From assembly GCF_947241125.1 (NCBI RefSeq), contig NZ_OX365700.1:3690001-3754000 (forward strand): DNA of 64,000 bases. Reading direction: 5' to 3'. The notes below the pieces were generated by a model. It searched no databases. It saw nothing but the letters and a program-made list of their open reading frames with translations, and was not told the origin of the DNA. The translations under genes were made by a program, and so were the position numbers. Source of the stretch: Nitrospira tepida (GTDB taxonomy: Bacteria > Nitrospirota > Nitrospiria > Nitrospirales > Nitrospiraceae). Every line of letters starts with the position of its first letter. Position 1 is the stretch's first letter. Positions 40,969-44,707 of this stretch are shown here, piece by piece.

Positions 40969-41197
40969 AGCCGCCTCTCTTTTTGATGAAGGTTCGGACG
41001 GTACCACGACCGTGCCCGGAACAAAACAGTTTCTCAGCCGGGTGAATGGGCGAATCCTTTTCTCCGGAATAGGCTCTTAAAACAGACAGGGAGGTTCTCG
41101 CTGTCGGGTGATGGAATCAGTGGTCATCTGACAGAGACGAGAGCACGAGTGAGATTCCCTGAGTGACGGTGTTCATCCAGGAGAGGAGAAGGCAAAC

Positions 41198-41440
41198 GTG
41201 GTGGGTCAAGAGAAGAAACCCAGGACATCGGGAACCCCGGGACCCTGCCACCGTTGCGGCGGGCTTATGGTCCCGGAACGGAGCCAAGACCGATACATGA
41301 CTGAGTGGCGGTGCGTGAGTTGCGGAGATCGCATCGATCCGGTGATTTTGGCGCACCGTGCCCAACACCAACAGCAGACAGAAAAGGATACGGCTCGGGA
41401 ACGCGCGGAGACGCTCTTCACGCCGTTCAGTCTGAATTAG
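41198..41440 (+). CDS. Small zinc-ribbon protein
   Basis: 80 residues from GTG. PCHRCGGLMVPERSQDRYMTEWRCVSCGDRIDPVILAHRAQHQ: two CxxC pairs form a zinc ribbon of about 35 residues, followed by a charged helix. A second protein of the same build is encoded at 59336 (CPRC-GFMV ... CMNCGNVVEP-I-ANR). Such proteins may bind nucleic acid or be adaptors; the function is unknown. GAGAAGG precedes the start. Confidence 0.75.
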   Translation: MVGQEKKPRTSGTPGPCHRCGGLMVPERSQDRYMTEWRCVSCGDRIDPVILAHRAQHQQQTEKDTARERAETLFTPFSLN

Positions 41441-41755
41441 ATAGAGTATCTCTCCGGGTCACTCCAGCCAGCGGCCGCTGCCGGTTGGTGCTCCTATGCG
41501 CTCTCACCCTCCACCTGTTGAGCGCATAGCCCCGCCGGCCGCGCGGCGGCCCGTTTTGCGTTCCATCCCCGATTTGACTGCTGGCCCCTACGTAGCTTCA
41601 TTCTCACCTAGGGATAGTCCGAGAGCCATTGAATCGACGGAAGCTGTAAGCTAATCTTTCCATCACCGACATCGCTCTCAGTATCATCCACAGTCGCAGC
41701 AGCGGCACGCTTCCGGCCCCGCCGCCTGCGCAATTGCAAGAGGAGCCGTGATTTC
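41441..41755. terminator. Intergenic region with two hairpins (terminator) before hpnR
   Basis: No gene seen. A 10-bp stem CTATGCGCTC/GAGCGCATAG (41494-41503 with 41520-41529) is followed by CCGCCG/CGGCGG (41532-41537 with 41544-41549) and TTTT at 41554-41557, a likely terminator for the zinc-ribbon gene. A weak promoter TTGAAT-N17-TAATCT (41629-41657) could serve hpnR. Confidence 0.55.
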
Positions 41756-43300
41756 GTGAAGCTCCTTCTCGTTCATCCAGGTCCGTTGATGTACACCAAG
41801 ATCTACCTCCGCCTGGAACCGTTGGGGCTGGAGCTTGTGGCAGATGCGGCCCGCCGCGCCGGGCACCAGGTCGCGTTGCTCGACCTCCAGGTGGAGCAGC
41901 CGGAGGCCTACCTGGCGCTGGCGGCGGAATGGCGGCCGGACGCGATCGGGTTCTCGTGCAACTATCTGGCGAACGTGCCGGAAATCGTGGACCTTGCCAA
42001 GGAGACCAAGGCGCGATGGCCGGACGTGTTTCTCTTTGTCGGCGGCCACAGCGCATCGTTCGTCGCGGAGGAACTGCTGGAACATGCGGAGGGGGCGATC
42101 GACTGCGTGGTCAAAGGCGAAGGGGAACCGGCGATCGTCGCGCTCCTTGACGCCCTGCAGGAGGACCGCGCCGCCATCGCCTCCGTCGCCGGCGTGGTCT
42201 CGCATCTGGGTCAGGGTCCCCCTCCGCAATTCCTGCATAGCCTGGACGAGTGCCGGCCGGCCCGGGATCTGCTCCGGCATCGCCGGCGGTATTTCATCGG
42301 GGTCCTCGATCCCTGCGCCTCCATCGAATTTTCACGGGGCTGTCCCTGGGACTGCTCGTTCTGTAGCGCATGGACCTTTTATGGAAGGAGCTACCGGCTG
42401 GTCTCTCCTGAGGTCGTCGTGGAGGATCTGGCACGTGTGCGGGAGCCAGGGGTCTTCATCGTGGACGACGTGGCCTTCATCCAGGCGAAACACGGGCTGG
42501 CGATCGGTGAGGCCATCGCCAGACGTGGCATCAAGAAACAGTACTATCTCGAGACGCGCGGCGACGTGCTGCTTCGCAACAAGGAGGTGTTCCAACTGTG
42601 GAAACGGCTGGGCCTCGAATACATGTTCATCGGCATCGAAGCGATCGATGAGGAAGGGCTGCGGCTGTATCGCAAGCGCATCTCGCAAAGCAAGAACTTC
42701 GAAGCCCTGGAGTATGCCCGATCCCTGGGGATCACCGTGGCCATCAACTTGATCGCCGACCCGGACTGGGACCGTCGCCAGTTTGAAGTGATCAGGCGGT
42801 GGTGCCTGGAGATTCCCGAGATCGTCAACGTGAGCGTCAATACCCCTTACCCCGGCACGGAAAGCTGGCGGACGGAGTCCCGCAGGATCGTCTCGCGGGA
42901 TTATCGGCTGTACGATATTCAACATGCGGTGTTGCCCACGAAGCTGCCGTTGCCCGAATTCTACGAGGAATTGGTGAAGACCCAGCAAATTCTCAACCGC
43001 AAGCACCTGGGTTGGGCCGCGTTGAAATCCACGGCCTGGATCGCCGCTGGACACCTCCTGCGCGGACAGACCAACTTCGTCAAAATGCTCTGGAAATTCG
43101 ACAGTGTCTATGACCCCAAGCTGCAACTGGCCGACCATGCGAGGCCGGTCCGCTATCAGATGGCTCCGCCGCCCGACCCATCGCCGCATGCGAATGGCGC
43201 GCTACTCTACATTCACCGCGCCAAAGGCCGCCAGAGCCGGGCGATTGACGACGACACCGAAGCGTTCGTCGATACCAGTCGCACCGGGACCGGTCTCTAA
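41756..43300 (+). CDS. hpnR: Hopanoid C-3 methylase HpnR (radical SAM, B12-binding)
   Basis: 514 residues from GTG with AGAGGAG upstream. Residues 1-150 are a cobalamin-binding domain (LLLVHPGPLMYTKIYLRLEPLGLELVADAARRAGH, VGGHSASF). The radical SAM core has the cluster motif CPWDCSFC (CxxxCxxC) near residue 199 within EFSRGCPWDCSFCSAWTFYGRSYR, and VNTPYPGTESW and YDIQHAVLPTKLPLPEFYEEL are characteristic of HpnR as I remember it. HpnR adds the C-3 methyl group to bacteriohopanepolyols. No other hpn gene (shc, hpnH, hpnP) is near. B12 and radical SAM dependence follow from the family. Confidence 0.88.
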   Translation: MKLLLVHPGPLMYTKIYLRLEPLGLELVADAARRAGHQVALLDLQVEQPEAYLALAAEWRPDAIGFSCNYLANVPEIVDLAKETKARWPDVFLFVGGHSASFVAEELLEHAEGAIDCVVKGEGEPAIVALLDALQEDRAAIASVAGVVSHLGQGPPPQFLHSLDECRPARDLLRHRRRYFIGVLDPCASIEFSRGCPWDCSFCSAWTFYGRSYRLVSPEVVVEDLARVREPGVFIVDDVAFIQAKHGLAIGEAIARRGIKKQYYLETRGDVLLRNKEVFQLWKRLGLEYMFIGIEAIDEEGLRLYRKRISQSKNFEALEYARSLGITVAINLIADPDWDRRQFEVIRRWCLEIPEIVNVSVNTPYPGTESWRTESRRIVSRDYRLYDIQHAVLPTKLPLPEFYEELVKTQQILNRKHLGWAALKSTAWIAAGHLLRGQTNFVKMLWKFDSVYDPKLQLADHARPVRYQMAPPPDPSPHANGALLYIHRAKGRQSRAIDDDTEAFVDTSRTGTGL

Positions 43301-43420
43301 CCTCCCCTCCGACGTTGTGCTGATGAGGCAGAACGGGATATCGTGAACCCGGAGGCCGCGCGTTCTTGTTCATTCATATGCGTCCTGCGCATAAGCGCTG
43401 CCGGAAGAGGATCCCGCTCC

Positions 43421-44707
43421 ATGGCGTCCAACAGCTCCGTGCCTCCACACATCGTCATTGTCGGAGGCGGCTTCGGCGGCCTCGCAGCGGCGCAGGGTTT
43501 GGCCCATGCCCCGGTCGAGGTCCTGCTCATCGACCGGACCAACCACCATCTCTTCCAGCCCCTGCTCTATCAGGTCGCAACCGCCGCCTTGTCGCCTGGA
43601 GACATTGCCTGGCCCCTGCGGACCGCCGTGCGTGGACAACAGAACGTGCGGGTGGTGATGGACAAGGTCGAAGCGGTCGATCGTGCAACCCGCCGTGTCA
43701 TCGTCACAAACGGTCCCGCCATTCCGTTCGACACGTTGATTTTGGCGCCGGGGTCCCGGCCCGCCTACTTCGGGCATGACGAATGGGCCGCCCACGCGCC
43801 AGGACTCAAAACGTTGTCCGATGCTTTGACGCTCCGTGAACGGCTGCTGCTGGCCTTCGAAAACGCCGACCGCCGCGCCAGATTCGCGGCGGCCCAGCCG
43901 CTTACCTTCGTGATCGTCGGCGGAGGGCCAACCGGTGTGGAGTTGGCCGGCGCCCTTGCCGAAATCGGGCGCAACGCGATGGTCCCGGACTTCCCCGCTC
44001 TCCGATGGGACGAGGTCCGCATTCTCCTGGTCGAAGGGGGAGAGCGGATTTTACCGGGATTCAGCCCGGCCCTTTCGAGTCAAGCCACGATCGCGCTCCA
44101 GCGAATGGGGGTCACGGTCCTGCTCAAAACACAGGTGCGGGAGGTGCGCGACTCCGGCGTCATGGTCGGTGATCGATTCATCGAACCGGCCTCTGTGATC
44201 TGGGCGGCCGGCAACCGGGCTTCCCCGCTCACACAAGGTCTCGGGTGCCCATTGGATTCGTCGGGACGGGTGCGGGTGCAAGCCGACCTGTCGATTCCCG
44301 GCGATCCCTGGATCTTCGTGATCGGCGACGCCGCCCATTGTACCGGCAAGGATGAGCGGCCGTTACCGGGTTTGGCCCCGGTCGCGATGCAACAGGGCCG
44401 TTACGTCGCAGAGGTGATCCGAAATCGGCAAGCACCGGGTCAACGGGCTCCGTTCGTCTATGCGGACCGAGGCCAGCTCGCCACCATCGGACGCGCCAAG
44501 GCCGTCGCTGAACTCGGCCCCCTGCGGTTCTCAGGCCTTCCCGCCTGGCTGCTCTGGTGCGTCGTGCATGTCTTCTTCCTCATCAGCCTGCGCAACCGCT
44601 TTCGCGTCATGTCCGAATGGATCTGGTATTACCTCACCTTTAAACCCGGCGCTCGGCTCATCTATGATGGGGGCGAGCGGCACAGCAGATCAGGAGGACA
44701 GCCATGA
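43421..44707 (+). CDS. ndh: NADH dehydrogenase type II (NDH-2)
   Basis: 428 residues. FAD site IVIVGGGFGGLAAAQGLA, quinone region NHHLFQPLLYQVATAALSPGDIAWPLR, NAD site FVIVGGGPTGVELAGALAEIG, and FVIGDAAHCTGKDERPLPGLAPVAMQQGRYVA. A C-terminal membrane-attaching segment (LLWCVVHVFFLISLRNRFRVMSEWIWYYLTFKPGARLI) is typical. Moves electrons from NADH to quinone without pumping. Ends with an ATGA overlap to the next gene, so they are translated together. Confidence 0.93.
   Translation: MASNSSVPPHIVIVGGGFGGLAAAQGLAHAPVEVLLIDRTNHHLFQPLLYQVATAALSPGDIAWPLRTAVRGQQNVRVVMDKVEAVDRATRRVIVTNGPAIPFDTLILAPGSRPAYFGHDEWAAHAPGLKTLSDALTLRERLLLAFENADRRARFAAAQPLTFVIVGGGPTGVELAGALAEIGRNAMVPDFPALRWDEVRILLVEGGERILPGFSPALSSQATIALQRMGVTVLLKTQVREVRDSGVMVGDRFIEPASVIWAAGNRASPLTQGLGCPLDSSGRVRVQADLSIPGDPWIFVIGDAAHCTGKDERPLPGLAPVAMQQGRYVAEVIRNRQAPGQRAPFVYADRGQLATIGRAKAVAELGPLRFSGLPAWLLWCVVHVFFLISLRNRFRVMSEWIWYYLTFKPGARLIYDGGERHSRSGGQP

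Follow-up and report, generated by a model that had tools for sequence, protein, structure and literature searches.

The window analysed here, a stretch of 64,000 nucleotides from the Nitrospira tepida genome, carries a gene that by family and motif is a genuine, ordinary and intact hopanoid C-3 methylase gene (hpnR), and the same genome holds the core hopanoid pathway and a second, divergent hpnR. We assign a probability of about 90% to the reading as a whole, namely that HpnR is intact and its substrates are made by the host, that the window copy is native, that copy 2 is probably a lateral acquisition, and that the cobalamin is probably salvaged. The family assignment, the motif, the pathway genes, nxrB, the tree positions and the missing CbiC are direct observations. 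Coordinates are collected in Table 1.

Table 1. Features at and around the two hpnR copies (window positions, except where prefixed with C1, the host contig)
Feature	Position	Strand	Basis or remark
80-aa ORF with two CxxC pairs, probable small zinc-ribbon protein, possible gene only	41198-41440	+	ORF reading
6-pair terminator-like hairpin that would end the small upstream ORF	41537-41551	+	not above chance
GAGGAG, probable ribosome-binding site	41740-41745	+	direct sequence reading; ten bases 5' of GTG
hpnR (window copy), hopanoid C-3 methylase	41756-43300	+	514 aa, GTG start; TIGR04367 and domains
CPWDCSFC, the CxxxCxxC iron-sulfur motif of radical SAM enzymes	42341-42364	+	residues 196-203
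NDH-2-like pyridine nucleotide-disulphide oxidoreductase	43343-44707	+	Pyr_redox_2 and NDH2_C above cut-off
hpnR copy 2, full-length HpnR (L083)	C1:1242841-1244304	-	908 bits, HpnR model

The window protein matched the HpnR model of NCBIfam (TIGR04367, an equivalog model with a curated cut-off of 650 bits) at 902.4 bits (E 5.9e-272), covering model positions 1-489 of 490. Pfam assigned it a B12-binding domain (PF02310) at 14-130 followed by a Radical_SAM domain (PF04055) at 190-349, both above cut-off. The motif CPWDCSFC is intact and is identical in 97 of 102 HpnRs, and none of the 228 columns kept in at least 97% of these 102 proteins is altered in the window copy. Solved structures were remote, the closest reaching 36.9 bits at best. 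An ATG start was found in 134 of the 141 relatives with a full N terminus; the GTG start of the window gene is unusual, not unique. The results for the family model and the motif uphold the HpnR identity proposed in the first-pass annotation.

The host genome is closed, a single contig of 4.73 Mb with an estimated completeness of 100% and a G+C content of 59-63% in the stretches read. Three NxrB-like genes were found, each encoding 429 aa with identical first 50 residues, and the one protein compared scored 588 bits against nitrite oxidoreductase subunit B (PDB 7b04). With these three genes and its placement in Nitrospiraceae, the host is, by gene content, a Nitrospiraceae nitrite oxidizer, as the suggestion of a nitrifying Nitrospirota host had anticipated. 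A search for pmoA/amoA (PF02461) returned zero matches in the host and was equally silent in the control genomes. The proposed check for shc elsewhere in the genome was run and found SHC starting at C1:1165151 (TIGR01507, 788 bits; cut-off 431), with HpnH ~11 kb beyond it at C1:1178317 (549 bits; cut-off 225); an HpnG-like protein adjoining SHC scored under its cut-off. A candidate second SHC at C1:3041000 (L002:1039-2283, minus strand) was rejected, its 415-aa protein having a weak SHC C-terminal domain match and also matching C5-epimerase and pectate-lyase models. In the pathway that we propose, SHC would cyclise squalene and HpnH would begin side-chain extension, and the host would in this way supply the substrates of HpnR. 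HpnR itself is a predicted cobalamin-binding radical-SAM methyltransferase that would place a methyl group on C-3 of hopanoid ring A, both the catalysis and the lipid product being predicted from sequence.

Among the neighbours of window hpnR scanned with family models, no hopanoid gene was seen, in agreement with the earlier description, and SHC and HpnH lie ~2.5 Mb away on the contig. That description had also placed the gene behind a terminator-containing gap (41008-41755) and had taken this to suggest regulation separate from that of the other hopanoid genes. The distance and the hairpin upstream of hpnR speak for such separate control. However, distance by itself does not demonstrate regulation, and because ring-A methylase genes in Alphaproteobacteria are mostly unlinked from other hopanoid genes (PMC12583986), the isolation of window hpnR is not special. 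The hairpin is indeed present, but at chance level (3 terminator-like sites against 1.6 +/- 1.1 in shuffles), and the gap is occupied by the same-strand 80-aa ORF, for which no Pfam match was found. A search for a sigma-70-type promoter upstream of the gene found none. Separate control is thus not established, and we regard it as a tentative proposal that is somewhat less probable than its opposite. Downstream on the same strand lie the NDH-2-like gene, which may in fact begin with the ATG at 43421 and whose distance to hpnR is 42 to 120 bases depending on the start codon, and a gene for a PPOX-type flavoprotein; judged by this arrangement, the three genes could be co-transcribed. Across the related loci compared, no convincing conserved neighbour of window hpnR was found.

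Copy 2 is 75% identical to the window copy, at a distance of ~2.5 Mb. The gene order at this locus is sthA-type transhydrogenase, hpnR, transaldolase, and a transaldolase gene also adjoins hpnR in genomes G036, G037 and G038. Two near-complete HpnRs per genome were found in 3 of 379 Nitrospirota genomes, the host, G037 and G038. In genome G152, partial HpnR genes at two loci (L129 and L130) occur on separate short contigs, one gene with an in-frame TGA, and these may represent either two gene copies or assembly fragments. Two genes of the Pup-ligase family (PF03136; L093:10861-12381 and L093:14552-16033) lie ~3-8 kb from copy 2, and the pair points to a putative pupylation system in the host. 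A literature search brought up no paper devoted to genomes with two copies of hpnR, as judged from titles and the beginnings of abstracts, which is no proof of absence. What is new here is one genome with two HpnRs of differing ancestry, a modest detail.

The two copies occupied separate positions in the HpnR tree, in which deep branches have moderate support only. The window copy was sister to that of G006 (support 100/99), the nearest relative of the host by rpoB among the genomes used, and copy 2 was sister to copies of g14, a distant Nitrospira lineage to which G037 and G038 belong (support 100/99). The rpoB of G014 was left out for its spurious long branch, probably the product of a wrong reading frame. 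Constraining the two host HpnRs as one clade was rejected (p-AU 0.000115), which rules out recent duplication as their source, and an earlier quick tree likewise separated them. The placement of the window copy agrees with the host tree, and on this basis the copy was passed down vertically within the host's own lineage. Between copy 2 and the G037/G038 copies, HpnR identity is 86% at an rpoB identity of ~87.5%, whereas the 44 other genome pairs with 86-88% rpoB identity had a mean HpnR identity of 74.7% and a maximum of 80.3%. Because its HpnR identity exceeds that of pairs at like rpoB distance, copy 2 was most likely gained laterally from another Nitrospira lineage.

Alternatively, both HpnRs could be old paralogues of the ancestral Nitrospiraceae, retained here and lost in most relatives. 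The clades of both copies include members of several genera, and this, together with the moderate support of the deep branches, leaves room for such a history. We nevertheless consider it unlikely, since copy 2 is nearer to the g14 copies than the rpoB distance allows under vertical descent, shares the transaldolase neighbour with them, and would belong to a pair retained near-complete in so few genomes. A lateral gain of copy 2 is therefore preferred. More widely, HpnR identity ranged from 69.7% to 94.9% across the 16 pairs whose rpoB identity was 98% or more; this loose tie to host kinship suggests exchange, replacement or differential loss of hpnR within Nitrospiraceae. A bolder proposal, which we think improbable, is that both C-3 methylases of the host are functional, differ in origin and have distinct roles (for instance in hopanoid substrates, or in oxygen or cobalamin conditions), and that hpnR moves between Nitrospira lineages, partly in the sthA-hpnR-transaldolase neighbourhood. 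If this were true, the 3-methylhopane output of nitrifiers would be set by the copy carried and by cobalamin supply.

HpnR was present in 86 of 175 Nitrospiraceae genomes (62 of the 114 of good quality), and SHC in 166 of 175 (113 of the 114). By gene content, hopanoid capacity is near-universal in the family, and the capacity for C-3 methylation is common but patchy. The nearest named relatives of window HpnR were mostly from Nitrospira. The HpnR of Nitrospira moscoviensis (taken to be G055, whose HpnR is identical) is 75% identical to the window copy, comes from the same host family and is likewise encoded by an unlinked gene, but it is the only HpnR of its genome, against two in the host, and the window copy falls in a different HpnR clade. 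G037 and G038, also Nitrospiraceae, resemble the host in carrying two full HpnRs in a single-contig genome, one of them nearest to host copy 2, whereas their other copy lies in a clade different from that of the window copy. The HpnR of Methylococcus capsulatus is 69% identical to the window copy and shares its full-length family match and CxxxCxxC motif, yet it belongs to a methanotroph clade apart from the Nitrospira clades, while the window host is a nitrite oxidizer. Elling and co-workers have reportedly surveyed the hopanoids of cultured nitrifiers. The occurrence of hpnR in Nitrospirae is already published: it has been credited to Welander and Summons 2012 (PMC5462960), and the gene has been reported from two newly described marine Nitrospira as well as from N. 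marina (PMC10579370). With this record and the frequency of hpnR in the family, the first-pass annotation's expectation that the gene adds a non-methanotroph source does not hold as a novelty.

That the window protein is a different B12-dependent radical-SAM enzyme (HpnJ, HpnP or BchE-like) and no C-3 methylase is highly improbable: the fold is common to BchE, HpnJ and others, the protein scores above noise with their models, and several B12-radical SAM relatives in the genome reach 27-90 bits with the HpnR model, but the second-ranked model for the window protein, BchE, gave 155 bits, far under its own cut-off, so that the model scores rule out another family, and in the tree, which included no non-HpnR outgroup, the protein clusters among HpnRs, that of Methylococcus capsulatus included. 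The comparison with other B12-radical SAM enzymes called for earlier thus places it inside HpnR by both scores and tree.

The host genome was also searched for CbiC, which was not found; the same search detected CbiC in 7 control genomes and, within the family, in 8 of 60 members. Since CbiC is missing and only two TP-methylases are present, de novo cobalamin synthesis in the host is unlikely, and the corrin ring is apparently not made. HpnR therefore probably uses salvaged cobalamin. Several more B12-binding radical SAM proteins (L085, L086, L088, L090 and others), all below every curated cut-off tested, coexist in the host with this apparent absence of de novo synthesis. B12 auxotrophy has been remarked on in marine Nitrospira with hpnR (PMC10579370).

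3-Methylhopanes in rocks are often taken as a sign of aerobic methanotrophs, although 3-methylhopanoids have been described as unusable as markers of this group (PMC5462960). The presence of hpnR is no guarantee of 3-methylhopanoids, and 4 of 12 hpnR-bearing alphaproteobacteria tested yielded none (PMC12583986). The present host apparently cannot make the corrin ring, and any 3-methylhopanoid output would then depend on outside cobalamin; the same point has been made for marine Nitrospirales (PMC10579370). Nitrifiers had been put forward before as possible sources of 3-methylhopanes, and this view gains strength from the closed genome of a nitrite oxidizer that combines shc and hpnH with two hpnR genes. 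The genome also offers a single organism in which two divergent HpnRs may be compared.
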